DNA from: Terriglobus albidus
Lineage (GTDB): Bacteria > Acidobacteriota > Terriglobia > Terriglobales > Acidobacteriaceae
Direction: 5' to 3'
Assembly (NCBI RefSeq): GCF_008000815.1
Contig: NZ_CP042806.1
Location: forward strand, 2,232,001-2,296,000
Length of the DNA stretch: 64,000 nt
The position numbers were made by a program, and so were the translations under genes. The notes under the pieces are model-generated. The model ran no database searches and was not told the DNA's origin. It saw only the letters and a list, made by a program, of their open reading frames with translations. Below, piece by piece: positions 32,588 to 53,827 of this stretch. Numbering within the stretch: the stretch's first letter is position 1; each line of letters opens with the position of its first letter.

Positions 32588-32619
32588 CTTTGCTTATAAC
32601 CCATACACCAGGGTGCCCC

Positions 32620-33996
32620 TCGATAAGGAAGAAGACTGTGTCAAGGGTAAAAAGAGCGTACGTCATTATTCGATGCGAGAGCACCGTTTGAGAGTCCAGA
32701 GGCAAGGGGTTAGAGGACCGGTGTCTTCTGGGGTAACTCAACGCTGCATCACATCTCTGTGGGGCCTAGCCCCACCAACCATCGATTCGACCGTATGAAA
32801 CAGGCCATGATGCTTCTATGCGGACATCCAGCCTGTGCTGGATGCGAGAGCGCTCACTCAACGTCACGACCATGGATGGCCAGGGGCACCCCCGAGCTGC
32901 TCTCGATATGGGCGATCTCTGGATACGGTTTATTCAGCCTGAGCATCCAGTAGAGCCGCACTGCTAACTTCCTTGCTGCCGCCACCTTGGCCACTGCTTT
33001 CGGCTTGTGGTGGCAGCGAGCCTGATACTGCTTTCGAAATCCTTCATCCAGCCGGCAGGCCGTCTGAGCTGCTTCGACCAGCAACTGGCGCATGAACCGG
33101 TTGCCCTGCTTGCTGATGGCTCCCAGTTTGCGCTTGCCGCCCGAGGTGTATTCGCTGGGGATCAGGCCCAGATAGCTGGCGACCTTCCCGCTGTACTCGA
33201 ACCGGCTCACATCGCCGATCGTCAGTACGAAGGCCATCGCCGTGATCGGACCCACTCCCGGCTGGCTCATCAACAGCTCCGCCTTCGCATCCTCCCTGGC
33301 CGCCTGCACGACTGCCTCATCCAGCTCCTTGATCTGCTGATCCAGACCCTTCATCAGCTCCAGCAGATCCTTCCGTCGACGAGCACTCCAGCCCTCCAGG
33401 GGAAGCTTTTCCAACTCAGCCCTCCCCCGAACGCTCCACAGCCGCGACTGCTTCTGTACGCCACGGTTCATCGCCAGGTGCTGCAGCCCGTTCTTCACCC
33501 GGGTCCGGATCTCCACCAGCTTGTGACGGTGGATCAGCAGCTGACGAAGATCCCGCTGCTCGGCTGAAGGCGTCCACAACCGTGGAAACCGGTCCTCCAC
33601 CAGCAGCTTCAGGATATGGTCCGCATCCCGGCGGTCCGTCTTCTGCTTCCGTACATAGCTGGCTCGGATCTTCGCCGCATCTCCGACCCACACCGTGTGA
33701 CCCAGACTGCCTAGCAGATCAATAAACCACTGCGCGTTGCCGCACGACTCGATTCCTACAAGCGCTCCCGGAGACAGAGACCGGTAGAACCGTTCCGCCT
33801 CCCCATCACCGTTGACTAGCTTCGCTTCCCGGTACTCGCCAGTCTCCTGATCTAAAAATGAAACCTGCTGCCACTGCGGATGGAAATCACAACCTACAAT
33901 CTGCATAAGAAGGCTTCTCCTGATCTTCCCGATAGGTCAGTCCTCTAACCCTTACCTATCTCGATCTTCGCTGAAGCCTTCTTCCTTATCCCATCA
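32620..33996 (-). mobile_element. IS110 family, IS1111-group element, copy 1
   Basis: 1377 bp on the minus strand. Ends set by comparison with the two other copies and uninterrupted repeats: left end TGATGGG then subterminal inverted repeat ATAAGGAAGAAG, right end CTTCTTCCTTAT then CGA. Seven bases outside the left and three outside the right inverted repeat is the layout described for the IS1111 group. No target duplication. It splits a hairpin repeat whose halves are at 32601-32619 and 33997-34016. One base shorter than the other copies (a C in the right-end C-run). Confidence 0.92.
32854..33906 (-). CDS. IS110-family transposase (DEDD), copy 1
   Basis: 350 residues. N-terminal RuvC-like DEDD domain (MQIVGCDFHPQWQ, GALVGIESCGNAQWF, KQKTDRRDADHILKLL) and C-terminal transposase-20 domain with MSQPGVGPITAMAF and SYLGLIPSEYTSGGKRKLG, holding the conserved serine used by this family for recombination. 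Differs from the other two copies at four residues (A-E-Q, RRKDLL, ARKLA, NKPYPE), so it is the older or separately acquired insertion. Appears intact. Confidence 0.95.
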   Translation of the reverse strand: MQIVGCDFHPQWQQVSFLDQETGEYREAKLVNGDGEAERFYRSLSPGALVGIESCGNAQWFIDLLGSLGHTVWVGDAAKIRASYVRKQKTDRRDADHILKLLVEDRFPRLWTPSAEQRDLRQLLIHRHKLVEIRTRVKNGLQHLAMNRGVQKQSRLWSVRGRAELEKLPLEGWSARRRKDLLELMKGLDQQIKELDEAVVQAAREDAKAELLMSQPGVGPITAMAFVLTIGDVSRFEYSGKVASYLGLIPSEYTSGGKRKLGAISKQGNRFMRQLLVEAAQTACRLDEGFRKQYQARCHHKPKAVAKVAAARKLAVRLYWMLRLNKPYPEIAHIESSSGVPLAIHGRDVE

Positions 33997-34086
33997 ATGT
34001 CCCTAGGGGACATGGGTTATTCGAGCGAAGCTCGAATTGCTTTTTTGTCATTTCGCAGCGACCAACGGGAGCGGAGAAATCTGCTT
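33997..34086 (-). repeat. Composite hairpin repeat, left part (interrupted by IS copy 1)
   Basis: Read on the minus strand: module A (AGCAGATTTCTCCGC.. GCTGCGAAATGACAAAA, 34047-34086), hairpin 1 (ATTCGAGC-GAA-GCTCGAAT, 34019-34037), then hairpin 2 (arms ATGTCCC/GGGACAT, 33997-34013), cut by the IS. The remainder GGGGCACCC.. is at 32601-32619. Confidence 0.75.
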
Positions 34087-34186
34087 TTCTCCCGGCGATA
34101 GACAAAATCTCAGGGACACTACTTTCCCACGCCGGTATTGGGCGGGAAGGAATGGGTTGAGAAGCAGCGTGGATTCAAGGTCCAAG

Positions 34187-34226
34187 CTGATTTCTCCGCC
34201 GCGCTGCGAAATGACAAACAAGAATG
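34187..34226 (+). repeat. Module A of the composite repeat, plus orientation
   Basis: GCTGATTTCTCCGCCGCGCT followed by GCGAAATGACAAACAAG. With the inverted copy at 34047-34086 it brackets about 100 bp without a gene. The rest of 34087-34574 holds no other structure I can support. Confidence 0.65.
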
Positions 34227-34574
34227 ACGTTCCCGTCTGTTCTGTGCACCCAGCCACTTTGCCAGCGTGGCGCCGGTTGCCGCATCCATCGCAATAAACA
34301 GGGAATATGGTGCACTGTCGCAAAACCGAACAGCACTAAAGAATTTGTGAACTTGACAATCCACAAGCCAAGACGAGAGTCTAAGGCCACAACACAAAAA
34401 TAAACCAAGTTTTTTCTTTTTCCCAGGTCCTGCTTGTCTGGAGGACTGTTCTTGATCTGCCTACAACTCGTTTCTTTCCTGCTGCGCTCTTTTCTTCGCG
34501 AGAGCTCTGATGTAGTGACTTCTTGCCGATCCGGCCTGTCCATCGGAACGACGAGCTCTATACCACGGCGTTCA

Positions 34575-37500
34575 ATGAGGACTACGAGACTTGCATTCTT
34601 GCTTTCTCTTTTGGGCTACTCGGCTACGTGTTTTGCCCAGTATGACTACTTACCAAAAGTAGGGATCAAGGATTTCGCGACCTATCAACAGTCAAGCATT
34701 GACAGCGTTGACCTGGACACGGGCAACGTCAATCTGCATATCCCGCTCCTAGGCTTTCCCCAGAAGGGAAGCAAGCTTCGTCTGAACTTCATCGTCAGAT
34801 ATAACGAGCCGCAGTGGTTCAGCGCGATCGGTATGCCCCTCTACAACCCTACCATTGGCGGTTATTCCGCAGCTGGGTTTTGGAAGCTCAAGGACTTCAA
34901 TAATCCGCGTCCTCTAGGTGTCGATGTAGTAAGAGACCAGGCGGTAACGAGCACCTATAACATGACTCCCCGAATAGCGCCGGGGTGTTGCGGTAACGGA
35001 GACCCTATCGACTATTATTCGGAGGGCGGTGGGATAAGGGATCGTTCTGGTGCCGTTCATGATCTTTGGGCAAGAGCTGGTACAGGCGGTCAAGTTGCGG
35101 CCCCTCTGGTAAATTTCCCAGCTCCTGATGGTTCGGGATGGGTCTTTGCAGCCGGAGGACTAAAAGACAAAGAGGGTGTGACCTACAGCAGCTTGACGAT
35201 TCAATCAGGAGGGGTAAGTCGGCCAGCCTGGAACATCTCCGACGCCCACGGGAACACTATTACAACGGACGTTGATGGCTGGCATGACAGCATGGGCCGT
35301 ATTATCCCCGGATCATGGGGAGGCCACGGCTCCGGATCGGTAAACAGCCCCAATGGATACCCGCCCTTGGAAGACGATCCATTTCCCGGCGTACCCAGCA
35401 GTGAGATGGCTCGCTGCAATAACGGAGCAGTAGCAACGAGAACCTGGACCGTACCTGCGTCCTCAGACTCGGGTGGATCGCAAACATATTACTTCTGCTT
35501 TTCGAAGTACACCGCGAACACACGCTTCAATTTCAATGGCAGGCTCGGACAGGTCAATAGTGCCGTTCTCGACGAAGCATCTTTCGATGCGTATCTCCTC
35601 ACGAAGATCATTCTGCCAAACAACACTTCGTACTCCTTTCAATACGATCCTGATTTTCTCGACCTGACTCGCATCGATCTACCCACAGGCGGCGTGGTCG
35701 TGTATACGTGGGGAACCGTCAAGTGGGACCTCTGCTCTACAGCGCAGCCCATGAAACGTGTTGTCACAGCAAGATCTGTAACGACGGGAGGCGGTGTTTC
35801 ATCCTGGAGTTACAACTGGGGGAACAACGGCGTGTGCGGTCCTCAGCCCGGAGATGCCATACCGGTGATTGTTTCCAGGCCCGATCAGAACGACGAGTGG
35901 CATTACCAAAGCCGCATAGAGGACAACGGAAAGCTCAATAAGTACGTTGTTTCTTATAAAGGGCATGCGAGTGGAGATGCTTATAAAGCAACAGGAACGA
36001 TCTCGAAGATCGTTAAAACGTCGAGCAGCTTTCGCTCCACCCCCTTGTTTACGCAGACCCAGGACATCCTGGTCTCTCCAGAGACTGGCCCAGACGGCAA
36101 TCCCATTGTGAAGTGGCTACCAGGCTATTCCACTCCTGAAACAATCCCAGGTCCTGTCGAGACGACGATCATGTCGCTCTACGACCTCACCACTCAGAAG
36201 GTGGTCTCATCTCAGGAGACCGACGCCACGCCTGTGCCCTCCTCGGGCACTATCGAGCGATGGAATCCCGACAATTACTGGTATCCAGCGCACGACACTT
36301 GTGCCTGTGTCAATTACACGGAGATAGCGACTGAAAAAGTCTACGACTTTGTTCAAGGCGCTGGTTCTGGTCCAGGGACTCTGCTGCGCAAAACCGATAT
36401 GACCTACAGATTTCAGGATACCGGTGGAGCAGACTATGAGAATAATGGCCTGACAGGGCTTCCGTCGCAGATCAAAATCTATGATGGCGGTTCACATCAA
36501 GTGGCCCAAACCGGCTACACCTATGACGATTCGACCTACTCTGCTGGCGTTGTGGCTGGAGAAGTGACATCTGTCCGGAAGTGGAAAGACGCGTCTAACC
36601 ATATCGACACATACTCCAGTTTCAACTCCGATGGGACATGGACAGGTTCCGTCGATGCGAACGGCATCAAAACTCATGTCGATTCCTTCGATTGTTCGAG
36701 TGCCTTTCCTAAGAGCGTCACGAAAGCCTACGGTACGTCGATCGCGGAAACATCTGTCTATTCTCACGACTGCAATACAGGGAAGGTTACGTCACACAAG
36801 GACGCCAATTCACAGACGACTTCCTATACCTATGCGGACTCACTGAATCGAGTAACGGCAGTAGACTACCCCGATGGCGGTCACACCGCCATCACATACA
36901 CAGACGGTGCAAATTCATCGGCAAAGGTGCAGGTCGATACCGGTGGCACCCAGGGGAAGATGTCGCAAACAGTTAGTTACGATCTTGTCGGGAGGACGAT
37001 CAAAGTTCAACAGAACGCAGGGAGCGATGTCATCAGCGTCGATACCAAGTATGACGATATGGGGCATGTCTACTCTACTTCAAATCCCTACACTGATACT
37101 CAAGGTTCGTCCAGTAGTGTGACCGTAAACACCTATGATGAACTTGAAAGGCCAATTCAAAAGACGAATCCCGATGGAAGCTCCCAAACGTTCTCTTATT
37201 CGGGAAATGTAGTCACAACAAAGGATGAAATAGGCAATGCCTGGAAGCGGACCTCAGACGCCCTTGGAGAACTGACAAACGTCGAGGAACCAAACGGCGC
37301 GAAGACAGCCTATACCTATACGGCACGTGGCGATCTCGCTACTGTCAGTCAAGCCGGCCTGTCAGGAGAGACCGCGCGCGCTCGAAGTTTCGATTACGAT
37401 TGGCTGTCAAGGCTGAGTCAGTCTTACAATCCTGAATCCGGTTGGATCTGCTATGGCGCGACATCCAGCGGAGCAGCCAGCGGATCGAACTGTACCGCCG

Positions 37501-40151
37501 ATTATGATGGCAACGGCAATCTTGGGCATAAGACCGATTCTCGTGGTGTAGTGACAAGCTACAGCTACGATGCATTCAACCGTCTCACGCTCAAACATGC
37601 CAACGACGGCATCACTCCCGATGTTGGCTACTACTACGACCAGACATCGAATTGGGGTGGAACTGTTGCTAACGGTATCGGCCGTCTGGGGCAGGTTAAC
37701 TATGCATACACCAATGGCCATTACGTGAGCGAAACATACTCATACGATGCGTTGGGAAGGGTAGTCTTTCAGTTCGTCGCTCCCTCGAACGCAGGCGCAA
37801 CTTGGTTTGCGACTACCTATGATCTTGCGGGAAATGTGATCGGGTACGGCCGTTCCAGCGGGCCGACGATAGAGCGTACTTATGATTCGGCAAGCCGGCT
37901 ACAGAAGGTTACGCTGACTGGCTACGACGGTATCCCGTTAAGCTACGACTACTTGAAGTCGGCCAGCTACTTTCCTGACGGTTCTGTCCAGAGCATGACG
38001 TTCGGCAATAACGTGACCGAGAGCTACACCAGGAACAGCCGGCTTCAGATTAACGGATTCAAGGTCACAGGACCTTCTTCGGCGGGATCGCCTGTCTGGC
38101 TCAACCGCAGCTACGATTACCTTGCGGAGTGCAGTGGAACAAGCCATAAGAATAACGGCAACATCTACCAGATCAGCGACCAACAGAACTCTTCGCGCAG
38201 CCAGTGCTTTACCTATGACAGTCTCAACCGCATCAGTTCTTATCTAAGAGGCTCAACGGGGGGCTTCAATGGCGGACAAACCTATTCCTTTGATTCGTTC
38301 GGCAATGCAAGCCAGACAAACTCGGTCGGCCCGAACCTGGTAGATTTCGCGCCGGGCTTCGACGCGAAGAACCGCATTGCCGCAAGTGCTTTCGGCTGCG
38401 ATGCTGTGCCGGGAACCATCGGTGTGGATCCGGCCAATTCAGGCTACGACCTTTCGGGAAATATGCTCTGCACAGGCGCGCGAAATTACACCGCGAAGGG
38501 GTTCGTCTTCAACGCCAGCGGGCAGGTTGCGCGTCTGTACTCACAATTGGGTTCAAATACCTATGCGCAAACGGAAGAGTATCTCTACAACGCCGATGGC
38601 AACCGAGTGCATAAAGGCTCAGGATCCGATTGGACCGATTATGCCTATGTAAACGGCCAGATGCTGACCGAGTTTCATCCCGACGGTGTCTCCGACTACG
38701 TCTATGCCAACGGACAGAAGATCGCACGCGCTGACAGCTATGACCAGCGAATCCATATCCACGGCAACCGTTGCGATCCGAACAACTGCGGGTGGCAGTC
38801 AGCGACATGGCATTTCCCGGTCCCTGCGTACACCATCAAAGCCGGCGACAAGGTCACGTGGCGTCAGTATCAGGCGGGCGGCGCTATCGGCGGGCTCACA
38901 TTGTCTTTCAATAATGGCGCAAATACCAATTGGACGAGCACGGATACAGATGGCCAGGTGATGAACAATCTCACCTCTCACTACACATGGGTGACACGCA
39001 CCGTCGATCTGAGTTCATTCGCGAACACCGTACTGGGGGACGGATGGATTGTGGCCGAAGGGCAAACGGCCGCTGGTGACTGGGATGAGTGGTTCGGCGA
39101 AATCGCGATCTACAGCACGGATGGAACGGTAACGCCGATCTATAACCGCCTGCGAAGTATCGGTCTTTCTTACTACGGCACGCCGGGCATGACGAACGTG
39201 CAAGCGAATGTCGAGCACTCCAATAGCGATGGGGATGCAAGCTTTCCACGGGCGAACACGACCTACTATGCGGCAGACCATCTAGGCTCGGCGACGATGG
39301 AATTCTCCGCTGGTGGAGTCAACGGCCCCGGAGGCTGGCCGATGTGGAGAGGAGAATACGCTCCCTACGGGCAGGAACTCACCGCCAGCATACCAACGGT
39401 AAACAACTACAAGTTCACCGGCAAAGAACGGGACTTAGAATCAGGGCTCGACTACTTCGGGGCAAGATACTACGGTTCGACTATGGGGCGCTGGATGAGC
39501 CCGGATTGGTCACGTGTGCCCACCGCAATCCCTTTTGCAACTCTCGATAATCCTCAGAGCTTGAATCTCTATAACTATGTCGGGAACAATCCGATTACAA
39601 AAAGAGATCCCGACGGACATCATCAAGAATGTGCGCCGGATAACAGTACTCTTGACCCACAAACGGGAGTTCTAACCGTTCATGCTGGTAGATGCCATGA
39701 AGTCGATGACTTGCCTTGGTGGCTAGCTTTCAACCCTTGGGGAAAGCTCGGAAGTCCAAGGCATCGCCAATCAGTGCGACAGCTCGCCAAACTGCTCCGT
39801 AGTGAAGGGTACGAAGTACAAACCGAAGTGAAAGTCGATACTCCTCAAGGAGCGAAGGCCTCTCGATTTGTCGATGTCGTTGGAGTGAAACCGCGGACAG
39901 GCGAAACAAAAATGTACCAAGTCGGTGAAGCAAATAAAGACGGTAGTCCGGTTGCCAGAGAGCGGAGCGCATTGAATGATATAGAGAAGGCAACTGGAAT
40001 ACGTCCGCAGTTTGAAGATAAGGGCGTTGGTGCGAGACTAGAGGCGATCGAATCAGGACAAGTTTCGCTGCGCACGCCAATTGAAGAAGAAGGAGAAGGC
40101 GCAGGTAGGATTGGAGGCGAGGAGCCAGAGATCCCGATCGATATCCCATGA
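34575..40151 (+). CDS. Secreted RHS/YD-repeat protein with variable nuclease-like C-terminus
   Basis: 1858 residues from ATG 34575; signal peptide LAFLLSLLGYSATCFA. A beta-rich N-terminal region is followed by many YD repeats (about 620-1320; for example YDAFNRLTLKH, YDALGRVVFQF). A separate Trp-rich, beta-sandwich-like domain (about 1390-1540; HIHGNRCDPNNCGWQ to DEWFGEIAIYS) precedes the RHS core LDYFGARYYGSTMGRWMSPD (about 1625). The end after DPDGHHQECAPDN is a distinct 180-residue module with helix HRQSVRQLAKLLRSEGYEV, then RFVDVVGV and YQVGEANKDGSPVARE, resembling a PD-(D/E)xK-type nuclease. This is the polymorphic-toxin plan: cocoon-forming repeats releasing a C-terminal toxin. A small gene overlapping its stop is the likely immunity partner. 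Confidence 0.88.
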   Translation: MRTTRLAFLLSLLGYSATCFAQYDYLPKVGIKDFATYQQSSIDSVDLDTGNVNLHIPLLGFPQKGSKLRLNFIVRYNEPQWFSAIGMPLYNPTIGGYSAAGFWKLKDFNNPRPLGVDVVRDQAVTSTYNMTPRIAPGCCGNGDPIDYYSEGGGIRDRSGAVHDLWARAGTGGQVAAPLVNFPAPDGSGWVFAAGGLKDKEGVTYSSLTIQSGGVSRPAWNISDAHGNTITTDVDGWHDSMGRIIPGSWGGHGSGSVNSPNGYPPLEDDPFPGVPSSEMARCNNGAVATRTWTVPASSDSGGSQTYYFCFSKYTANTRFNFNGRLGQVNSAVLDEASFDAYLLTKIILPNNTSYSFQYDPDFLDLTRIDLPTGGVVVYTWGTVKWDLCSTAQPMKRVVTARSVTTGGGVSSWSYNWGNNGVCGPQPGDAIPVIVSRPDQNDEWHYQSRIEDNGKLNKYVVSYKGHASGDAYKATGTISKIVKTSSSFRSTPLFTQTQDILVSPETGPDGNPIVKWLPGYSTPETIPGPVETTIMSLYDLTTQKVVSSQETDATPVPSSGTIERWNPDNYWYPAHDTCACVNYTEIATEKVYDFVQGAGSGPGTLLRKTDMTYRFQDTGGADYENNGLTGLPSQIKIYDGGSHQVAQTGYTYDDSTYSAGVVAGEVTSVRKWKDASNHIDTYSSFNSDGTWTGSVDANGIKTHVDSFDCSSAFPKSVTKAYGTSIAETSVYSHDCNTGKVTSHKDANSQTTSYTYADSLNRVTAVDYPDGGHTAITYTDGANSSAKVQVDTGGTQGKMSQTVSYDLVGRTIKVQQNAGSDVISVDTKYDDMGHVYSTSNPYTDTQGSSSSVTVNTYDELERPIQKTNPDGSSQTFSYSGNVVTTKDEIGNAWKRTSDALGELTNVEEPNGAKTAYTYTARGDLATVSQAGLSGETARARSFDYDWLSRLSQSYNPESGWICYGATSSGAASGSNCTADYDGNGNLGHKTDSRGVVTSYSYDAFNRLTLKHANDGITPDVGYYYDQTSNWGGTVANGIGRLGQVNYAYTNGHYVSETYSYDALGRVVFQFVAPSNAGATWFATTYDLAGNVIGYGRSSGPTIERTYDSASRLQKVTLTGYDGIPLSYDYLKSASYFPDGSVQSMTFGNNVTESYTRNSRLQINGFKVTGPSSAGSPVWLNRSYDYLAECSGTSHKNNGNIYQISDQQNSSRSQCFTYDSLNRISSYLRGSTGGFNGGQTYSFDSFGNASQTNSVGPNLVDFAPGFDAKNRIAASAFGCDAVPGTIGVDPANSGYDLSGNMLCTGARNYTAKGFVFNASGQVARLYSQLGSNTYAQTEEYLYNADGNRVHKGSGSDWTDYAYVNGQMLTEFHPDGVSDYVYANGQKIARADSYDQRIHIHGNRCDPNNCGWQSATWHFPVPAYTIKAGDKVTWRQYQAGGAIGGLTLSFNNGANTNWTSTDTDGQVMNNLTSHYTWVTRTVDLSSFANTVLGDGWIVAEGQTAAGDWDEWFGEIAIYSTDGTVTPIYNRLRSIGLSYYGTPGMTNVQANVEHSNSDGDASFPRANTTYYAADHLGSATMEFSAGGVNGPGGWPMWRGEYAPYGQELTASIPTVNNYKFTGKERDLESGLDYFGARYYGSTMGRWMSPDWSRVPTAIPFATLDNPQSLNLYNYVGNNPITKRDPDGHHQECAPDNSTLDPQTGVLTVHAGRCHEVDDLPWWLAFNPWGKLGSPRHRQSVRQLAKLLRSEGYEVQTEVKVDTPQGAKASRFVDVVGVKPRTGETKMYQVGEANKDGSPVARERSALNDIEKATGIRPQFEDKGVGARLEAIESGQVSLRTPIEEEGEGAGRIGGEEPEIPIDIP

Positions 40152-40747: not shown

Positions 40748-40780
40748 GACGCAGTAATCTGGGGACAGGCAGGTTAGTAG

Positions 40781-41662: not shown

Positions 41663-42057
41663 CGTCTGGATGCTGGCGAAGATGCTGTTGCGCCACGCGC
41701 GCTGTTTCGCTGCCGTGGAGCCTCGATGTGCCGCAAGGCTTGTTTGAAAAAATCCAGATCCAACTGCTGGCCTATCTTGCGCTCCAACTCTGCGATCTTG
41801 CGCCGCGCCTAGGCTAACTCGCTGGCTTCTTCCTCGCCGTGCTCACGCTTCAGCAGTTCCGTCTTCGATGGGCGGCCAGACTTCCTTCGAAAGGCCTTCT
41901 CTCCATCCTGCCGAACAGCATCGCGCCAACGATAGAGCAGGGTTCGCTTCACTGCCAGTTCTACCGACAACGCACCGCTGCTCTCGCCAGCCTCCATTCG
42001 CTTTACTGCCCGCAGCTTGAACGACCGGCTGAACGCCCTTTTCTCTTCCTGGGACAT
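41659..42057 (-). pseudogene. IS3-family OrfA with premature stop
   Basis: Starts MSQEEKRAFSRSFKLRAVKR with an HTH_8-type DNA-binding segment (ELAVKRTLLYRWRDAVRQDG). After EEASELA the frame meets TAG (41809-41811), then continues ARRKIAELERKIGQQLDLDF, the leucine-zipper region expected in OrfA. A single C to T change in a CAG codon would explain the stop. Confidence 0.75.
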
Positions 42058-42829: not shown

Positions 42830-42843
42830 GGTCTCAACCTCCA

Positions 42844-43424: not shown

Positions 43425-43431
43425 GCTCTAA

Positions 43432-46148: not shown

Positions 46149-46181
46149 AGAATTGATTCCTACACAGCAAAAAAATGCGGA

Positions 46182-46217
46182 GAAACCCGGAGAAACCTGA
46201 GACAGACGGGACGTAAC
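46182..46217 (+). repeat. Dispersed repeat also found split around the IS3 element
   Basis: GAGAAACCCGGAGAAACC followed by TGAGACAGACGGGACGTAAC. The IS3 flanks (AGAAACCCGGGGACAGGCGG / GGGACGTAAAC) are a variant of the same sequence. Possibly the remnant end of another element. Confidence 0.5.
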
Positions 46218-46349
46218 CATGTATAGCAAGAAAAACCTGTGCTGCTGTCCGTTGGATCATATGGATGATGACGTCAGGCTGGTTGAGGATCAGAGGCTCG
46301 GCAGGCAGTCGATGGTTACGCACTGATTCGGGGGCCGTCTGCTTTAAGA

Positions 46350-46458
46350 AAGCAGATCCCTGCGGGATGGCAAACAAAATGGGCCGGATGATTTTCACCG
46401 CATGATCAGAATTGTCGTGGCCGGCTTACCCACATCTGGCGATAATGCTGCCAGATAT
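46350..46458 (+). repeat. Composite hairpin repeat, left part (interrupted by IS copy 2)
   Basis: AAGCAGATCCCTGCGGGATG (module A variant) through a GGCCGG-bounded segment to hairpin 2, CCCACATCTGGC (46429-46440) and GCCAGATAT, cut by the IS at 46459. It continues as GGGGCACCCAGCGTGGG at 47837. Confidence 0.7.
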
Positions 46459-46548
46459 TGATGGGATAAGGAAGAAGGCTTCAGCGAAGATCGAGATAGG
46501 TAAGGGTTAGAGGACTGACCTATCGGGAAGATCAGGAGAAGCCTTCTT

Positions 46549-47601
46549 ATGCAGATTGTAGGTTGTGATTTCCATCCGCAGTGGCAGCAGGTTTCATTTT
46601 TAGATCAGGAGACTGGCGAGTACCGGGAAGCGAAGCTGGTCAACGGGGACGGGGAGGCGGAGCGGTTCTACCGGTCGTTGTCTCCAGGAGCGCTTGTAGG
46701 GATCGAGTCGTGCGGCAACGCGCAGTGGTTTATTGATCTGCTAGGCAGTCTGGGTCACACGGTGTGGGTCGGAGATGCGGCGAAGATCCGAGCCAGCTAT
46801 GTACGGAAGCAGAAGACGGACCGCCGGGATGCGGACCATATCCTGAAGCTGCTGGTGGAGGACCGGTTTCCGCGGTTGTGGACGCCTTCAGCCAAGCAGC
46901 GGGATCTTCGTCAGCTGCTGATCCACCGACACAAGCTGGTGGAGATCCGGACCCGGGTGAAGAACGGGCTGCAGCACCTGGCGATGAACCGTGGCGTACA
47001 GAAGCAGTCGCGGCTGTGGAGCGTTCGGGGGAGGGCTGAGTTGGAAAAGCTTCCTCTGGAGGGCTGGAGTGCCCGGCGACGGGAGGATCTGCTGGAGCTG
47101 ATGAAGGGTCTGGATCAGCAGATCAAGGAGCTGGATGAGGCAGTCGTGCAGGCGGCCAGGGAGGATGCGAAGGCGGAGCTGTTGATGAGCCAGCCGGGAG
47201 TCGGTCCGATCACGGCGATGGCCTTCGTACTGACGATCGGCGATGTGAGCCGGTTCGAGTACAGCGGGAAGGTCGCCAGCTATCTGGGCCTGATCCCCAG
47301 CGAATACACCTCGGGCGGCAAGCGCAAACTGGGAGCCATCAGCAAGCAGGGCAACCGGTTCATGCGCCAGTTGCTGGTCGAAGCAGCTCAGACGGCCTGC
47401 CGGCTGGATGAAGGATTTCGAAAGCAGTATCAGGCTCGCTGCCACCACAAGCCGAAAGCAGTGGCCAAGGTGGCGGCAGCAAGGAGGTTAGCAGTGCGGC
47501 TCTACTGGATGCTCAGGCTGAACAAACGCTATCCAGAGATCGCCCATATCGAGAGCAGCTCGGGGGTGCCCCTGGCCATCCATGGTCGTGACGTTGAGTG
47601 A
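46549..47601 (+). CDS. IS110-family transposase (DEDD), copy 2
   Basis: 350 residues, identical to the copy 3 protein and four residues different from copy 1. DEDD catalytic residues in GCDFHP, VGIESCG and TDRRDAD; C-terminal transposase-20 domain with the conserved serine in EYTSGGK. Intact start with AGGAGAAG upstream. In this family the protein works with an RNA made from the element's own non-coding end that pairs with target and donor DNA. Confidence 0.96.
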   Translation: MQIVGCDFHPQWQQVSFLDQETGEYREAKLVNGDGEAERFYRSLSPGALVGIESCGNAQWFIDLLGSLGHTVWVGDAAKIRASYVRKQKTDRRDADHILKLLVEDRFPRLWTPSAKQRDLRQLLIHRHKLVEIRTRVKNGLQHLAMNRGVQKQSRLWSVRGRAELEKLPLEGWSARRREDLLELMKGLDQQIKELDEAVVQAAREDAKAELLMSQPGVGPITAMAFVLTIGDVSRFEYSGKVASYLGLIPSEYTSGGKRKLGAISKQGNRFMRQLLVEAAQTACRLDEGFRKQYQARCHHKPKAVAKVAAARRLAVRLYWMLRLNKRYPEIAHIESSSGVPLAIHGRDVE

Positions 47602-47836
47602 GCGCTTTCGCATCCAGCACAGGCTGGATGTCCGCATAGAAGCATCATGGCCTGTTGTATATGGTCGAATCGATGGTTGGTGGGGCTAGGCCCCACAGAG
47701 ATGTGATGCAGCGTTGAGTTACCCCAGAAGACACCGGTCCTCTAACCCCTTGCCTCTGGACTCTCAAACGGTGCTCCCGCATCGAATAATGACGTACGCT
47801 CTTTTTACCCCTTGACACAGTCTTCTTCCTTATCGA
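47602..47836 (+). ncRNA. Candidate bridge/guide RNA region of the IS1111-type element (copy 2)
   Basis: 235 nt of conserved non-coding sequence between transposase stop and right end, the position expected in the IS1111 group. Two strong stem-loops: CATCCAGC-ACAG-GCTGGATG and GTGGGGC-TAG-GCCCCAC; the second carries a TGGGGC like the target AT-GGGGCACCC. Equivalent regions are 53566-53800 and, on the minus strand, 32620-32853. RNA production is inferred from the family, not seen. Confidence 0.4.
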
Positions 47837-47851
47837 GGGGCACCCAGCGTG

Positions 47852-47971
47852 GGTGTCTCTGAAGTCTGGCGACATAAATCATGAAGAGCGTTGCCGCCCG
47901 AAGCGTTGAAAAGCGGGTCCTTCACTGTGTTCACGGTGACAACATGACAAGAACTTCTGAGACACCACCCT
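47852..47971. mobile_element. MITE-like element related to that at 9681
   Basis: About 120 bp bounded by near-perfect 13-bp inverted ends GGTGTCTCTGAAG / CTTCTGAGACACC, then ACCCTAG. Interior shares CATAAATCATGAAGAGC, CCGAAGCGTTGAAAA and GACAAGAACTTC with the 9681 element and includes GCGGGTCCTTC. Its right edge supplies the last bases and stop codon region of the next minus-strand gene. Confidence 0.55.
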
Positions 47972-48323
47972 AGTAACTGGCTATCCTGCGGATGATGTCG
48001 AGCTTAGCGGGGTCGATGCCGTGGAGATCGTTTTCGGTGAGGCGGCCGGAGCGGATCATGCCGGCGAAGACTATGGGCAGTACGGAGTAGCGGTAATCGT
48101 AATCGCGGTCGATGCGGCGGCGCTGATCTCCGAGCCAATCTTCTATGTCCCAGAGTTCCGCGGGTTTGGTGATCTGTGCGATGCGTTCTTTTGCCGTACG
48201 CATAACGGTATCGAGGTCCTGGTGGAGCGCCTGCTCGAAGGCTCGGCGGGCGGCGATCTTTTCTGCCTGGCTCCACCTCCAGTCGCGCATGTGGATGGAC
48301 TCTATGTCCTGTGTGCTGGGCAT
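47970..48323 (-). CDS. Conserved-looking hypothetical protein, 117 residues
   Basis: Starts at ATG 48323, with GGGGGA about eight bases upstream; an upstream extension of the frame runs through the tRNA gene and is rejected. Charged, helical, no signal or membrane segment: RDWRWSQAEKIAARRAFEQA, LWDIEDWLGDQRRRIDRDYD, LPIVFAGMIRSGRLTENDLH. The sequence resembles small acidobacterial proteins of unknown function. The stop codon TAG lies within the CTAG at the edge of the insertion element. Monocistronic downstream of tRNA-Ala. Confidence 0.6.
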   Translation of the reverse strand: MPSTQDIESIHMRDWRWSQAEKIAARRAFEQALHQDLDTVMRTAKERIAQITKPAELWDIEDWLGDQRRRIDRDYDYRYSVLPIVFAGMIRSGRLTENDLHGIDPAKLDIIRRIASY

Positions 48324-48465
48324 GCTCCAGTTCCCCCTTTGGCGGAATTGTAGCCCGAGAGATTGGCGCGGACATCGGATCTGTGAATAGAAAAGCAGAT
48401 CCCTACGGGATGACAAACAAGAAGGATGTTTTTGGCGCGGACTGAGAGGAATGGCCGGGGGACTT

Positions 48466-48541
48466 TGGTGGAGCTGAGCGGGATCGAACCGCTGACCTCC
48501 TCGTTGCGAACGAGGCGCTCTCCCAGCTGAGCTACAGCCCC
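48466..48541 (-). tRNA. tRNA-Ala (anticodon CGC)
   Basis: 76 nt including an encoded CCA. Acceptor GGGGCTG pairs with CAGCTCC and contains the G3-U70 pair that identifies alanine tRNAs. Anticodon stem CCTCG/CGAGG with loop TTCGCAA (anticodon CGC, codon GCG), and T loop TTCGATC. Confidence 0.95.
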
Positions 48542-48608
48542 ACAACAGAAGTCCGCGCATCTGGTGGGCGCGGACGGTGGCACAACCAACGAAAGTTAGT
48601 TTAGCAGA

Positions 48609-48638
48609 CGAAGGGCGCGTCTCTCAACGCGCCCTTCG
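48609..48638. terminator. Strong hairpin downstream of the S41 protease gene
   Basis: Perfect 12-bp stem CGAAGGGCGCGT/ACGCGCCCTTCG with loop CTCTCA, between the protease stop (48671) and the tRNA-Ala gene. No long T-run follows on the minus strand, so termination strength is uncertain. Confidence 0.6.
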
Positions 48639-48670
48639 GTGTTTCCGTGATTCTGTGTTGCTGCACAGAC

Positions 48671-50272
48671 TTACCGCAGTGCGGCCTGCTTCTGCACATT
48701 GGCGGCCTTGTCGGCCAGGGCCTGTGCCTGCGGAAGGTAGCCGACGGCCTTCTGGATCATCGGGTCCCAGTCGGCGCGGACGTGCAGACCTTCGGTCTGT
48801 CCGAACTGCGAGGTGAAGAGCTCAGCCTTGATGTTGGCCTTGATCCAGTCCTTCACCGCATCGAAGTCAGCATCGGAGTAGGTGATGTTCTGCGTCGACG
48901 GAGCAGACTTCAGGAAGCCCTTGAAGTCGGCGATCACAGCATCGTCCACCGTGAACTCCTTGGTGACCGGATGGTTCGCCAGGTAGTGCTTGGAGTAGTT
49001 GAAGAAGGCGTAGCCGATCAGCAACTGGTCCTGCAGGTGCGTTGACTTCGGCGTTTCAACCTTCTCGTCCGGTGTGATGCCGCCGCCGCCGTAGACCGTG
49101 CGTCCGCTGTCGGTGAGTTTCACCTCGCGGTTGGCGTTGTCCTTCGGCGTATCGCGTACGTAGTAGTAGTCGTAGAGCGAGACGTTGTCGTAGTTGCGCT
49201 GAATCAGGCGGCCGCTAGGCGTGTAGTAGTGATACGTGGTCAGCGCCAGGCCGGTATTCTCGCTCAGCGTGCTGACGGTCTGCACCAGGCCTTTGCCGAA
49301 GGTGGTTTCACCTACGATCAGGGCGCGATCGTGATCCTGCAGTGCGCCGGATACGATCTCGGCAGCCGATGCCGTGTTGCGGTTCACCAGCACGACGATG
49401 GGATATGACTTACCCTGTTCGCCGCGGGTGGCGCGGTAGACCTCATCCGGGAAGGCGCGTCCCTTCTGGCTGACGACGATCTGTCCCTTCTGCAGGAACT
49501 TGTCGCTCATCGCCACAGCTTCCTTCAGCAGACCGCCGGGGTTGCCGCGCAGATCGATGACCAGCCCGTCGACTTTGCCGAACTTCTCCAGGGCATCGGC
49601 GACCTCGTGGCTGGTGGTTTCCATAAAGCTGGAGACGTGAATGTAGCCAACGCCCGGCTTGATCTGGAAGGCCAGATCAACCGAATAGCGGGGAATCTCA
49701 TCGCGGACGAGGTCAAAGGTCAGGTTTTTTTCAGAGCCTTCGCGGGCCATCACCACGGCAACATGGGTGCCGCGAGCGCCCTTCAGCAGGCTGGCCACCG
49801 CGGCCGAGTCCATGCCTTCGGTCGACTTGCCGTCGACAGAGACAATCACATCGCCCGGGCGGATGCCGGCCTTATATGCGGGCGTTCCTTCGAAGGGAGC
49901 GACGACCACGATCTTATTGTTCTGCGGCTGGATCTGCATGCCTACGCCGTAGTACTTACCGTGCTGGTCTTCGCGCATCTGCGCGTAGGCCTTCGGGTCA
50001 TAGAAGTTGGAGTGTGGATCGAGCGTGTGCAGCATGCCCGGAATGGCGCCGTCGTAGATGGCCTTATCGATGCGCTCGCCGGTCATGGGGTCGGCATAGT
50101 TCTGCTCGACCACGGCATAGGCGCTGGTGAAGCTTTTAAGGCTGTCGCGAACTTTGTTTTCGTCAGTGGCCTGTTGCGCTCCAACTCTCTGGTTCACCAA
50201 GGAACCGGCAAGGGCGCATGTGGCTAGGAAAACGGTTGCAGAGAAGGCGGCACGGCGGGTGCGAAGAGCCAT
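48671..50272 (-). CDS. S41-family C-terminal processing protease
   Basis: 533 residues from ATG 50272. Export signal AAFSATVFLATCALAGSLV; an N-terminal helical region (VVEQNYADPMTGERIDKA, LHTLDPHSNFYDP); a PDZ domain (GVGMQIQPQNNKIVVVAPFE, AGIRPGDVIVSVDGKS); and the S41 core with VDGLVIDLRGNPGGLLKEAV, catalytic Ser in NRNTASAAEIVSGALQ and catalytic Lys in TTFGKGLVQT. A C-terminal helical tail (about 430-533) follows. CtpA/Prc type, working in the periplasm on protein C-termini or cell-wall hydrolase adaptors. Divergent from the SurA-like gene, with which it shares about 210 bp of upstream DNA; both act in envelope protein quality control. Confidence 0.93.
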   Translation of the reverse strand: MALRTRRAAFSATVFLATCALAGSLVNQRVGAQQATDENKVRDSLKSFTSAYAVVEQNYADPMTGERIDKAIYDGAIPGMLHTLDPHSNFYDPKAYAQMREDQHGKYYGVGMQIQPQNNKIVVVAPFEGTPAYKAGIRPGDVIVSVDGKSTEGMDSAAVASLLKGARGTHVAVVMAREGSEKNLTFDLVRDEIPRYSVDLAFQIKPGVGYIHVSSFMETTSHEVADALEKFGKVDGLVIDLRGNPGGLLKEAVAMSDKFLQKGQIVVSQKGRAFPDEVYRATRGEQGKSYPIVVLVNRNTASAAEIVSGALQDHDRALIVGETTFGKGLVQTVSTLSENTGLALTTYHYYTPSGRLIQRNYDNVSLYDYYYVRDTPKDNANREVKLTDSGRTVYGGGGITPDEKVETPKSTHLQDQLLIGYAFFNYSKHYLANHPVTKEFTVDDAVIADFKGFLKSAPSTQNITYSDADFDAVKDWIKANIKAELFTSQFGQTEGLHVRADWDPMIQKAVGYLPQAQALADKAANVQKQAALR

Positions 50273-50485
50273 TGTGGAAGGTACCTCTTTATACAGGTAG
50301 GGAAGCAACTCGAACGCGGGCTGCTCTATCTCCCGCGTATGACGGAGTATAGCACTGGAAGGTGAGCCGAACCGAGGCCCAAAATCGCCTCGCGGGGCGT
50401 AGAATAGGCGAGTCGATACCCGATTTGGCACCTTCGCGTCGAATTTGGTATGGCAGTTCAACCGGCAGGGATTCTGTTTCGATTT

Positions 50486-52288
50486 ATGACCATTCGTCCA
50501 TCCATCCTGACAGGCAGCGCCAGCCTGCTTCTGGCTGTTTCCGCGTTCGCCCAGCAGCAGAAGTCCAGCGCTCCGCGCTATGTAAGCCCCATTGCCCAGA
50601 AGCAGCCGGTGAATTCGCCCACGCCCAAGGCCATCACACCCGACGCCGAGGTGGTGGAGGACATGGTCGTCCGCGTGAATGACCAGATCATCTCCCGCTC
50701 AGACTATGAGCGGGCCCAGCAGCAGCTCGAGGGTGAAATCACGCAGAACCGGCTGTCTCCGGAAGACGCTGACAAGCGCCGTAAGGATCTGCTGCGCGAT
50801 CTGATCGACCAGCAACTGTTGATTTCAAAGGGCAAGGAGCTCGGCGTCAATGCCGACGCCGAGGTTGTTCGCCGCCTGGACGAGATCCGCAAGCAGAACC
50901 ACTTTGATTCGATGGAGGCCCTGGAGAAGGCGGCCCGCGAGCAGGGTGTGAGCTTTGAGGACTTCAAAGCATCGATTCGCAACAATATTGTTACCGGCGA
51001 AGTGGTGCGCAACGAGGTCGGCCGTAAGTTGCAGATGACGCACGCCGACGAGCTGCGCTACTACAACGCCCACAAGAACGAGTTCAGCCAGCCGGAACAG
51101 ATCCACCTGGCCGAGATTCTGATTCCCACCCCCGGCACCCCGACCGACGCCGATATCGCTGCCGCCCAGAAGAAGGCGGACGACGTAGCCGCGCAACTGG
51201 CCGCAGGAGCGAAGTTTGAGGATTTGGCCAAGACCGTCTCCGGCGGACCGACGGCGGCGCAGGGTGGCGACCTGGGTATGTTCAAGCGCGGCGCCGGCAT
51301 GTTGGCGCAAGTGCTTGAAGACAAGACGTTTCCTCTGAAGGCCGGCGAAAATACCGCTCCCATCCGTACTCGTCAGGGTTTCGTGATCCTGAAGGTGACG
51401 GAGCATACTGCAGCCGGCGTTCCTCCGCTGGAGCAGATCGAGCCCCAGGTGCAGGAGGCGATGTACTCCGAGCAGATGAATCCGGCGCTGCGTGCCTACC
51501 TGACCAAGCTGCGTGAGGATGCCTATATTGATCTGCGGCCGGGCTATGCGGATTCCGGCTCTTCGGGCCGCCAGACTTCGTTTGTCTTTACCGCCTATAC
51601 GCCGCCTGCTCCGAAGAAGAAGGTGAACAAGTCGCGCTTCGATACGGCGAAGACGGGCCGTCTTGCCCAGGCTCCCAAGGACGGAGCGCAGCTTGCCAGC
51701 CTGCCTCTGGATAAGAACGGCAAGCCGAAGAAGATCAAGCGCGAGAAGGTACGTTACGGCCAGGCTCCGCGTACGGCGCTGCCTGCGGCTCCTGAGGACC
51801 AGGTCGCCAACACCGGGGCGCAGCAGGAGGCTGCTCCCGGCACCGCGATCGCCCCGGTGGACAGCAATCCGCTGTCGCAGGCGAATGCCGATGCTGCCGC
51901 AGCGGCGGCTGCCGCCAATGTCGATCCGCTGGCTCCGAAGGCTCAGGTGGCCGATCATAAGTCGCGCTACTCCGCCAAGCAGAAGGAGTTTGAGCAGGCG
52001 AAGGTTGACCGCAAAGCTGCCTTTGCCCGTGAGAAGGCAGCTGCTATGCCCGATGCTCCGCAGGAGGAAGAGGTGCAGAGCCGCAAGGTGCAGTCTTCTG
52101 CTCTCGGTCTGAATGGCAACAACGGTAAGAAGAAGGTAAAGCGCAAGAAGGGTGAGGAGAAGAAGCGCATCCAGCAGACCGTCCAGGCGCCCTCGGAGAC
52201 GCAGAAGGAAGTCAACAGCCAGCGCAACGATGACGGTACGTATAAGAGTCCGGTACCGCCGGGAACCGGCGATACGACGAATCGGTAA
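50486..52288 (+). CDS. SurA-like periplasmic peptidyl-prolyl isomerase
   Basis: 600 residues from ATG 50486. Signal peptide ILTGSASLLLAVSAFAQ, then a SurA N-terminal chaperone domain (about 50-180; VVRVNDQIISRSDYERAQQQ, RKDLLRDLIDQQLLISKGKE, SFEDFKASIRNNIVTGEVVR). One parvulin rotamase domain follows (about 195-310; IHLAEILIPTPG, FEDLAKTVSGGPTAAQGGDL, RTRQGFVILKV). Unusually, it ends in a tail of about 240 residues that is Lys/Ala/Pro-rich, with no visible fold and a very basic segment KKKVKRKKGEEKKR. The tail may bind nucleic acid, peptidoglycan or anionic lipid, or simply be disordered. Outer-membrane protein biogenesis is the expected role. Confidence 0.9.
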   Translation: MTIRPSILTGSASLLLAVSAFAQQQKSSAPRYVSPIAQKQPVNSPTPKAITPDAEVVEDMVVRVNDQIISRSDYERAQQQLEGEITQNRLSPEDADKRRKDLLRDLIDQQLLISKGKELGVNADAEVVRRLDEIRKQNHFDSMEALEKAAREQGVSFEDFKASIRNNIVTGEVVRNEVGRKLQMTHADELRYYNAHKNEFSQPEQIHLAEILIPTPGTPTDADIAAAQKKADDVAAQLAAGAKFEDLAKTVSGGPTAAQGGDLGMFKRGAGMLAQVLEDKTFPLKAGENTAPIRTRQGFVILKVTEHTAAGVPPLEQIEPQVQEAMYSEQMNPALRAYLTKLREDAYIDLRPGYADSGSSGRQTSFVFTAYTPPAPKKKVNKSRFDTAKTGRLAQAPKDGAQLASLPLDKNGKPKKIKREKVRYGQAPRTALPAAPEDQVANTGAQQEAAPGTAIAPVDSNPLSQANADAAAAAAAANVDPLAPKAQVADHKSRYSAKQKEFEQAKVDRKAAFAREKAAAMPDAPQEEEVQSRKVQSSALGLNGNNGKKKVKRKKGEEKKRIQQTVQAPSETQKEVNSQRNDDGTYKSPVPPGTGDTTNR

Positions 52289-52296
52289 GGAAGAGA

Positions 52297-52320
52297 AAAG
52301 GCCCCGGAAACGGGGCCTTT
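52297..52320 (+). terminator. Intrinsic terminator after the SurA-like gene
   Basis: Stem AAAGGCCCCG/CGGGGCCTTT with loop GAAA, then TCTGTTGTT. Confidence 0.9.
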
Positions 52321-52336
52321 CTGTTGTTCATGAAGA

Positions 52337-52422
52337 AGCGGATTTCTCCGCTTCGCTGCGAAATGACAAAAAAGACAATATCGACCCTTCGGTCGATACT
52401 CCCACATAAGCTACGCGTATGT
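52337..52422 (+). repeat. Composite hairpin repeat, left part (interrupted by IS copy 3)
   Basis: Module A AGCGGATTTCTCCGCTTCGC..GAAATGACAAAAAAG; hairpin 1 TATCGACC-CTTC-GGTCGATA; hairpin 2 arms CCCACATA and TATGT (52401-52422), cut by the IS. The right half GGGGCACCCGGCGTGGG is at 53801. Confidence 0.8.
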
Positions 52423-53800
52423 TGATGGGATAAGGAAGAAGGCTTCAGCGAAGATCGAGATAGGTAAGGGTTAGAGGACTGACCTATCGGGAAGATCAGG
52501 AGAAGCCTTCTTATGCAGATTGTAGGTTGTGATTTCCATCCGCAGTGGCAGCAGGTTTCATTTTTAGATCAGGAGACTGGCGAGTACCGGGAAGCGAAGC
52601 TGGTCAACGGGGACGGGGAGGCGGAGCGGTTCTACCGGTCGTTGTCTCCAGGAGCGCTTGTAGGGATCGAGTCGTGCGGCAACGCGCAGTGGTTTATTGA
52701 TCTGCTAGGCAGTCTGGGTCACACGGTGTGGGTCGGAGATGCGGCGAAGATCCGAGCCAGCTATGTACGGAAGCAGAAGACGGACCGCCGGGATGCGGAC
52801 CATATCCTGAAGCTGCTGGTGGAGGACCGGTTTCCGCGGTTGTGGACGCCTTCAGCCAAGCAGCGGGATCTTCGTCAGCTGCTGATCCACCGACACAAGC
52901 TGGTGGAGATCCGGACCCGGGTGAAGAACGGGCTGCAGCACCTGGCGATGAACCGTGGCGTACAGAAGCAGTCGCGGCTGTGGAGCGTTCGGGGGAGGGC
53001 TGAGTTGGAAAAGCTTCCTCTGGAGGGCTGGAGTGCCCGGCGACGGGAGGATCTGCTGGAGCTGATGAAGGGTCTGGATCAGCAGATCAAGGAGCTGGAT
53101 GAGGCAGTCGTGCAGGCGGCCAGGGAGGATGCGAAGGCGGAGCTGTTGATGAGCCAGCCGGGAGTCGGTCCGATCACGGCGATGGCCTTCGTACTGACGA
53201 TCGGCGATGTGAGCCGGTTCGAGTACAGCGGGAAGGTCGCCAGCTATCTGGGCCTGATCCCCAGCGAATACACCTCGGGCGGCAAGCGCAAACTGGGAGC
53301 CATCAGCAAGCAGGGCAACCGGTTCATGCGCCAGTTGCTGGTCGAAGCAGCTCAGACGGCCTGCCGGCTGGATGAAGGATTTCGAAAGCAGTATCAGGCT
53401 CGCTGCCACCACAAGCCGAAAGCAGTGGCCAAGGTGGCGGCAGCAAGGAGGTTAGCAGTGCGGCTCTACTGGATGCTCAGGCTGAACAAACGCTATCCAG
53501 AGATCGCCCATATCGAGAGCAGCTCGGGGGTGCCCCTGGCCATCCATGGTCGTGACGTTGAGTGAGCGCTTTCGCATCCAGCACAGGCTGGATGTCCGCA
53601 TAGAAGCATCATGGCCTGTTGTATATGGTCGAATCGATGGTTGGTGGGGCTAGGCCCCACAGAGATGTGATGCAGCGTTGAGTTACCCCAGAAGACACCG
53701 GTCCTCTAACCCCTTGCCTCTGGACTCTCAAACGGTGCTCTCGCATCGAATAATGACGTACGCTCTTTTTACCCCTTGACACAGTCTTCTTCCTTATCGA
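52423..53800 (+). mobile_element. IS110 family, IS1111-group element, copy 3
   Basis: 1378 bp, same ends as copy 2 (TGATGGG.. and ..CGA) and nearly identical to it. Flank joining gives CGTATGT-GGGGCACCC, which completes the CCCACATA..TATGTGGG hairpin. The right junction is only 27 bp from the stop of the YXWGXW protein gene. Confidence 0.94.
52513..53565 (+). CDS. IS110-family transposase (DEDD), copy 3
   Basis: 350 residues, identical to the copy 2 protein. RuvC-like DEDD domain and C-terminal transposase-20 domain as described for the other copies. Identical protein and near-identical non-coding ends point to recent transposition between sites 6 kb apart. Confidence 0.96.
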   Translation: MQIVGCDFHPQWQQVSFLDQETGEYREAKLVNGDGEAERFYRSLSPGALVGIESCGNAQWFIDLLGSLGHTVWVGDAAKIRASYVRKQKTDRRDADHILKLLVEDRFPRLWTPSAKQRDLRQLLIHRHKLVEIRTRVKNGLQHLAMNRGVQKQSRLWSVRGRAELEKLPLEGWSARRREDLLELMKGLDQQIKELDEAVVQAAREDAKAELLMSQPGVGPITAMAFVLTIGDVSRFEYSGKVASYLGLIPSEYTSGGKRKLGAISKQGNRFMRQLLVEAAQTACRLDEGFRKQYQARCHHKPKAVAKVAAARRLAVRLYWMLRLNKRYPEIAHIESSSGVPLAIHGRDVE

Positions 53801-53827
53801 GGGGCACCCGGCGTGGGCAGTCCAAAA

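Follow-up and report, generated by a model that had tools for sequence, protein, structure and literature searches.

The window analysed here, 64,000 nucleotides of contig NZ_CP042806.1 from Terriglobus albidus, contains three copies of an IS1111-type insertion sequence (IS), each carrying a transposase open reading frame (ORF, tnp) between conserved ends (Table 1). Copy 1 is about 98% identical to copies 2 and 3, which are separated by about 6 kb and are identical over the compared blocks. Across the genome, 6.4 Mb on one contig, the IS110-type transposase domain is matched 22 times, and the matches fall into three size classes, namely 12 with a frame of 360 codons (350 from the ATG), constituting the family of the window, 7 with 384 codons and 3 with 396. 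All 12 copies of the window's family measure 1,377-1,378 bp and retain an intact 350-amino-acid reading frame. We conclude that this family is very probably an RNA-guided DEDD transposon of the IS1111 group, in which the target loop of a bridge RNA or seekRNA overlaps the end of tnp and the guide in this loop sets the insertion site.

Structurally, each of the 12 copies begins with TGATGGG followed by ATAAGGAAGAAG and ends with CTTCTTCCTTAT followed by CGA, forming 12-bp subterminal repeats with extensions of 7 and 3 bp. The ends TGATGGG...CGA that an earlier note had assigned to the three copies of the window, from their letters alone, therefore hold for the whole family. The IS1111 group is defined by subterminal inverted repeats of 11-13 bp with extensions of 7 bp on the left and 3 bp on the right (Siddiquee et al. 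2024, PMC11187229). The transposase matches the Pfam domains DEDD_Tnp_IS110 (E 5.2e-12) and Transposase_20 (E 6.7e-27) and scores 222.8 bits against NCBIfam NF033542 (cut-off 140). By its domains, subterminal repeats, extensions and constancy of site and orientation, the 12-copy family is an IS1111-group element. A non-coding region downstream of tnp, a further trait of the group, extends over 235 nt from the stop codon to the right end. The placement of target guides in this non-coding region, described for the tested members although it does not serve to define the group, is not the predicted rule in this lineage.

The right flank is GGGGCACCC in 10 of the 12 copies, including the three in the window, AGGGCACCC in one (L017) and TGGCCATCC in one (L010). 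Eleven copies follow the pattern [GA]GGGCACCC, and the same 11, all but L010, have one orientation relative to the repeat that they interrupt. The left flanks of copies 1 to 3 end in GGGACAT, CAGATAT and GTATGT, respectively, and the 12 left flanks give the consensus GA[CT]AT (G 10, A 11, C 6 / T 6, A 8, T 11). When comparing the copies with uninterrupted repeats of the same genome, we observed no target duplication. A common insertion base, a constant orientation and two empty sites near 55449 and 59206 had all been claimed in the earlier note, and all are found again, the first two at genome scale; a check for copies with unrelated flanks returned none among the 12, except for the right side of L010.

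Known bridge RNAs and seekRNAs lead one to expect a short segment complementary to the right half of the target. Close to the end of tnp, copy 2 carries the nonamer GGGTGCCCC, which is complementary to the right flank and lies 27-35 bases upstream of the stop codon (start at 47599). We refer to it as the predicted right-target guide (RTG). Relatives were collected from records named Acidobacteria, Silvibacterium or Terriglobia, with element ends set from inverted repeats; a same-class genome (L146) and a Terriglobia record (L068) carry the same element. Across 33 non-redundant elements with 18 guides, the RTG taken at its fixed site agrees with the right flank of the same element at 275 of 297 bases, compared with a mean of 151 and a maximum of 199 in 20,000 shuffles, and at least 8 of the 9 bases match in 30 of the 33 elements. 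With one element per guide class (18, the first listed member of each), 149 of 162 bases match (shuffles: mean 71.6, maximum 105). A position-free scan, starting 75 bases short of where protein homology ends, proceeding toward the right end and covering a slightly different set of 33, yields 8 or 9 matching bases of 9 in 31 elements (10,000 shuffles: mean 10.5, maximum 20), with the best match placed after the common motif AGC[CT][CA]G in all except L061. The RTG lies wholly in the ORF in 29 of the 33 elements. In three (L085, L089 and L108) the stop codon of tnp falls within the 9-base guide, and in one (L168) the guide begins 8 bases downstream of the first base of the stop codon. In L086 and L138, the guide and the right flank are both offset by one base from those of the other GGGGCACC-targeting elements, a joint shift that is expected if the guide sets the exact insertion base.

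The sets behind these counts were composed as follows. Before the position-free count, L116 and L119 were dropped for weak inverted repeats, L104 for too little right flank, and L082, L083, L064, L131 and L009 as duplicates. The final 33 omit L073, L130 and L139, each a near-copy or a copy with a deletion (8, 9 and 8 matching bases of 9, respectively, in the position-free scan), and add L152, L153 and L168, with L146, L147, L149, L151 and L170 dropped as duplicates from this later set. Loci without recognisable ends are excluded from the counts; a joint search on them, in which many combinations were tried, serves as support only, and its solutions for L110, L136, L165 and L171 are doubtful. 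For L061 the motif determined the guide site, and for L059 the site was moved one base onto the motif, which lowered both scores; L108 and L153 were kept at their best match.

In one of the 12 copies, L010, a complete element runs directly into the 3' part of a second copy, and the junction, CGA/TGGCCATCC, coincides exactly with the 3' boundary of the second copy's guide. As its right flank is composed of element-internal sequence and the 3' part of the second copy, L010 represents a nested or rearranged (IS-in-IS) copy. Self-attack is a possibility here, since guide DNA necessarily holds the right target half in reverse.

The RTG is part of a predicted target-binding loop. In the alignment of the close group, this loop comprises the 5' arm CGAGAGC, AGC[CT]CG, the RTG, a small hairpin, a left-target guide (LTG), TGATTGG and the 3' arm GCTCTCG. 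The predicted order of RTG then LTG is that of the IS1111 group, with the top-strand match located 5' of the bottom-strand match. The LTG is similar to the bases that close the left flank (127 of 192 bases over 32 elements; shuffles: mean 66.7, maximum 96); a position-free scan for 6-base matches to the left flank was uninformative on its own. TGATTGG after the LTG resembles the left extension of the IS, so that this strand reads like the left junction. The stem of the loop is paired in 98.9% of 362 cells and exhibits 78 double changes, as against 24.4 in shuffled and at most 11 in slid alignments; in the outer stem, 6 of 7 pairs have changed on both sides. The 5' arm of the stem is coding in the overlapping elements. 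Synonymous codon diversity at conserved residues amounts to 0.086 at codons 333-342, compared with 0.32-0.60 in blocks of 20 codons up to codon 320. An AlphaFold2 model of the transposase has a mean predicted local distance difference test score (pLDDT) of 87.1, with values below 50 over the loop-encoding residues 335-350. At the level of sequence comparison, the position of the predicted guide, its match to the flank, the covariation of the stem and the overlap with the gene are established. Production, binding and use of the RNA, its origin in a single transcript and the dispensability of the protein tail are what we infer from them.

Two other candidates were rejected. A block at element positions 1199-1204 (GTATAC, ACATAC, TCATAC etc.), variable among the 12 own copies, was considered as the left guide; the alignment of the relatives places it in the loop of another arm, with the left-flank match located 3' of the small hairpin that follows the RTG. 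A search of Rfam at E up to 1 returned c-di-GMP-II as its sole match, in the ORF (E 0.59, 19.4 bits against a gathering threshold of 53.5), which we take as chance.

Downstream of the target loop, a further arm holds the candidate donor motif ATCGATGG, which tracks the right end of the element. All 19 elements ending in CGA have C at the motif base, and 13 of the 14 ending in AGA or AAA have A; in L105, no donor motif was found. Close to the right end, TTGACA lies 25 or 26 bases before the terminus in 30 of the 33 elements, consistent with a circular intermediate that carries a junction promoter, a trait of the IS1111 group.

Table 1 Features of the three element copies and of their targets in the window. 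Guides, stem arms, donor motif and promoter hexamer are predictions.
Feature	Position	Strand	Remark
Copy 1, whole element, 1377 bp	32620..33996	-	ends TGATGGG...CGA
Copy 2, whole element, 1378 bp	46459..47836	+	ends TGATGGG...CGA
Copy 3, whole element, 1378 bp	52423..53800	+	ends TGATGGG...CGA
tnp ORF of copy 1, 350 aa	32854..33906	-	element positions 91-1143
tnp ORF of copy 2, 350 aa	46549..47601	+	stop TGA at 47599-47601
tnp ORF of copy 3, 350 aa	52513..53565	+	element positions 91-1143
Copy 1 RTG, in ORF	32883..32891	-	
Copy 2 RTG GGGTGCCCC, in ORF	47564..47572	+	
Copy 3 RTG, in ORF	53528..53536	+	
Copy 2 outer stem 5' arm CGAGAGC, in ORF	47550..47556	+	
Copy 2 LTG TGACGT, in ORF	47589..47594	+	weak match
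Copy 2 outer stem 3' arm GCTTTCG, after stop codon	47604..47610	+	
Copy 2 donor-guide motif ATCGATGG	47669..47676	+	resembles joined circle ends
Copy 2 TTGACA, -35-like (hexamer within this stretch), 25 bases before end	47811..47817	+	would face left end in circle
Copy 1 right target half, GGGGCACCC	32611..32619	-	
Copy 2 right target half, GGGGCACCC	47837..47845	+	
Copy 3 right target half, GGGGCACCC	53801..53809	+	
Empty target, intact repeat ATAT/GGGGCACCC	59206..59236	+	
Empty target, intact repeat ACAT/AGGGCACCC	55449..55480	+	

Several observations weigh against an overlapping guide. The RTG fails to match the right flank in L059 (3 of 9 bases at the fixed site) and L061 (4 of 9), and in L153 it matches at 7 of 9. 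L154 and L155, dropped before the count, have best matches of 7/9 that lie off the motif, and their ends are unsure. Against the left flanks of the window's 12 copies, the LTG matches only 3-4 of 6 bases. The double changes fall on 9 stem pairs, a figure reached by 28 of 500 shuffles, and the codon count rests on 19 sequences, 5 of which have in-frame stops. The window's own loop folds no better than shuffles (z 0.26 over 83 nt, z -1.74 over 261 nt), and in its predicted fold the guide pairs with itself; single-sequence folds of the relatives' loops gave z -2.76 for L059 and z -1.18 for L101. Because the own loop has no excess stability in single-sequence folding, covariation was used instead. 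For the donor motif, when matches anywhere in the region are allowed, the own base outscores the alternative in no more than 11 of the 19 elements ending in CGA, owing to ties elsewhere in the region. Among the 40 further loci matched by the covariance model described next, four matches are weak (L126, L128, L129 and L173, E 0.0011 to 0.13). Of the 15 comparison loci from outside the lineage, also described below, 8 have no clean solution, with doubtful candidate guides at -3 (L184) and -63 (L187).

To follow the arrangement among relatives, a covariance model was built on the 33 elements and applied to the window together with 54 other loci. Matches were obtained for the three copies of the window and for 40 further loci from genomes of the same phylum, some of them near-copies of each other; 36 of the 40 have E values of 1e-5 or lower, and 13 of the 55 sources gave no match. 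The guide of these 40 loci, read from the model position, lies in the ORF in 35, across the stop codon in three and after it in two; the frames of L122 and L123 run far past it. Beyond the lineage, the transposase finds matches in 2,060 plasmid records, from which 18 stretches were fetched and 15 analysed. Six distinct Proteobacterial elements were solved (L185, L186, L189, L191, L194 and L197; L198 repeats L185), having inverted repeats and both guides (RTG 8/8, LTG 4-5/5) under one or more choices of ends. Their RTGs are located 75-124 nt after the stop codon. One of them, L191, is matched weakly by the covariance model (E 0.74), with the model RTG within 2 bases of the flank-derived one. 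In a tree of 47 proteins, one branch (support 96/98) splits 40 overlap rows from 7 downstream rows; the 384-codon row forms a long branch, and L168 and L093, whose guides lie just after the stop, are labelled as overlap rows.

These comparisons bear on whether the complementarity in the last codons could be a product of chance or of protein conservation, with an ordinary IS1111 guide residing in the non-coding region. The 235-nt region that could house such a guide exists, and the tested IS1111 RNAs map downstream of tnp (PMC11187229). Against this stand a match at one place across 18 different guides that tracks each element's own flank, a protein tail that changes while its stem covaries, and guides that may include the stop codon, as in L085, L089 and L108; we regard this explanation as very unlikely. 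Still less credible is an inherited common site, with the copies and their flanks having been spread as units by homologous recombination or duplication. Copies 2 and 3, close together and identical over the compared blocks, would fit such a history, whereas the left flanks past the last few bases and the right flanks past GGGGCACCC differ among the 12 copies.

A third alternative starts from the repeat itself. In the genome, RYATGGGGCACCC occurs at 172 sites with at most one mismatch, as against 10 for a reversed control pattern, and the target repeat is thus a short palindrome in high copy number, as is characteristic of a repetitive extragenic palindrome (REP). From the window alone this enrichment could not be shown, since the nonamer GGGGCACCC is not enriched in the 64 kb (21 found with at most one mismatch, 18.6 expected). 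The repeat pattern is found in 19 of 19 genomes of the genus, the own genome included, with counts from 9 to 208, some of which are at control level (G166, 9 against 17; G425, 16 against 15). The transposase might recognise the REP-like hairpin as a structure, with the sequence match being secondary. A stem of at least 4 pairs ends at the insertion site in 9 of the 12 copies, the repeats are abundant, and the 384-amino-acid family of the same genome also resides in a hairpin in 7 of 7 copies. However, within 32 bases of the site no stem ending there is seen in L017, the arms of the target hairpin vary in sequence from copy to copy while the GGGGCACCC half is kept, and relatives with other guides have other right flanks. 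As stems vary or are missing and this half is kept, the conserved feature is the sequence around the insertion point and not one hairpin. From these alignments, sequence rather than the hairpin looks decisive for site choice; recognition of the structure in its own right is improbable, and hairpin structure could contribute alongside sequence. The preference for a REP-like structure that the earlier note put forward accordingly stands as far as the REP-like repeat is concerned. Its view of the hairpin as the preferred feature is not upheld, given the stemless L017, the varying arms and right flanks of relatives that follow an element-borne guide. The predicted RNA guide overlapping tnp, which would set the site, does not figure in that note.

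The target repeats often occur as inverted pairs about 100-350 bases apart, resembling bacterial interspersed mosaic elements (BIMEs), at 55313-55480 and 58875-59236 in the window and, for example, at 191307/191447 and 434928/435070 elsewhere in the genome. L015 and L020 contain a second palindrome in the 32-base stretch at the site. Another palindrome, CACCCCAACGAAC..GTTCGTTGGGGACCCCG, is seen at L031, L034, L036, L045 and L052 (near 1501) and in the left flanks of L015 and L020, placed within the loop or an arm of the target hairpin or right beside it. These nested palindromes look as if one REP had inserted into another.

The nearest described relatives are the IS1111-group seekRNA elements ISEc11, ISPa11, ISKpn4 and ISPst6 (Siddiquee et al. 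2024, PMC11187229). With these, the window's family shares the DEDD transposase, subterminal inverted repeats with 7 + 3 extensions, insertion at a single base in a single orientation, the lack of a target duplication and, as predicted here, the top-strand match 5' of the bottom-strand match; ISPa11 likewise targets a REP (PMC11187229). By their description, these elements encode their RNA in non-coding sequence downstream of tnp (PMC11187229), whereas the guide described here lies in the tnp ORF. The predicted RNA also resembles the bridge RNA of IS621 and the IS110 group (Durrant et al. 2024, PMC11208160) in that both target strands are read and a donor loop is present. The protein fold is the same as that of IS621 (best Foldseek match 8wt9, E 5e-16, 24% identity, TM 0.61), and the nearest solved structures are the IS621 and ISCro4 recombinases with bridge RNA. 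Unlike the predicted guide of the window's family, bridge RNAs are described as residing in non-coding ends, which in the IS110 group means upstream of the gene (PMC11208160). The flanks used for RNA prediction in that study included 50 bp of coding sequence, so an overlap of guide and gene would have been visible in principle; the passages covered describe none (PMC11208160).

A transposon protein that makes a guide from its own mRNA, as proposed here, has a counterpart in TnpB and its omega RNA (Nety et al. 2023, PMC10278001). TnpB differs from the window's transposase in belonging to another nuclease family. Moreover, the guide proper of TnpB lies beyond the end of the element, and the predicted guide of the window's family inside the ORF. 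Insertion of IS elements specifically into REPs is described for Pseudomonas and Sinorhizobium (Tobes and Pareja 2006, PMC1525189), i.e. for other bacteria and repeats, and the abstract of that paper describes no guide. IS1111-type insertion in REPs (PMC1525189, PMC11187229) and RNA guidance of IS1111 elements are therefore already known. A target guide in or across the end of a transposase coding sequence was not expected and is new within the literature covered: no report of one was found at title and abstract level, with full text limited to PMC11187229 and PMC11208160 and subscription literature mostly outside this coverage.

The most likely course is that circle formation joins the ends of the element and thereby completes a promoter. 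One transcript from the circle junction would then serve as both tnp mRNA and guide precursor. The transposase may fold from residue 1 to about 334, with a dispensable tail, and would bind part of the RNA, which would read target and donor. The element would thus be inserted at one base and in one orientation. As the target loop overlaps the last tnp codons, translation of the guide yields a C-terminal tail. Insertions would recur at one base and in one orientation because the guide reads about 14 bases, a sequence that is part of an abundant REP-like repeat. More tentatively, the overlap of guide and gene may make translation and targeting compete, with each transcript being either message or guide, a built-in limiter of transposition; we consider this possible, though doubtful. 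Binding or trimming of the loop of its own mRNA by the transposase would remove the stop codon and end the translation of that molecule, and ribosomes passing through the loop would unfold the guide. If this were true, every retargeting event would rewrite the protein tail.

The genome also contains a second IS1111-type family (L021-L027), with a 384-codon frame and 7 copies. All 7 are located in the loop of another hairpin, GCGGCT[T][TC]/AGCCGCTGAGG, a pattern that occurs 153 times in the genome, compared with 1 for the control. In the one copy considered (L021), a candidate right guide, TCAGCGGCT, is positioned 48 bases after the stop codon, and a scan for a left guide with at least 5 of 6 matches returned none. 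Seven Y1-transposase genes (PF01797; L203-L209), resembling those of REP-associated tyrosine transposases (RAYTs), are present, five of them between hairpin repeats. L204, L205 and L206 have GGGGCACCC hairpins on both sides, in inverted order at L204 and L205 and in direct order at L206, where one is a GTGGCACCC variant. L208 and L209 lie between GCGGCTTTAGCCGC hairpins, the class used by the 384-codon family. L207 has two GCGGCTTTAGCCGC hairpins on one side only, and neither class is found beside L203. As Y1 genes are flanked by both hairpin classes, both IS1111-type families use repeats resembling RAYT-mobilised REPs; PMC3733652 mentions RAYT-like genes in Acidobacteria. Elsewhere in the window, positions 5574-9238 comprise a diverged tandem duplication with a period of about 2.1 kb and 74-83% identity in the compared blocks.

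Bridge RNAs and seekRNAs have been described as features of non-coding ends (PMC11187229, PMC11208160), and the Acidobacteriota lineage, as represented by the 33 elements and the 40 model loci, differs from this description. The final codons of tnp suffice to read its target, and the annotated protein tail hints at the target: the tail RVPL usually accompanies the guide G[GC]GGCACCC and RVAL the guide GGGCCACC, with L059 and L073 as exceptions. As the guide is encoded in the tail, the C-terminal variation of these transposases would not reflect protein evolution. Searches confined to non-coding ends would miss or cut such guides, and a transposase of this kind that is recoded for expression would lose its guide. 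As a whole, the overlap makes a concrete question testable, namely whether one RNA acts as both message and guide.

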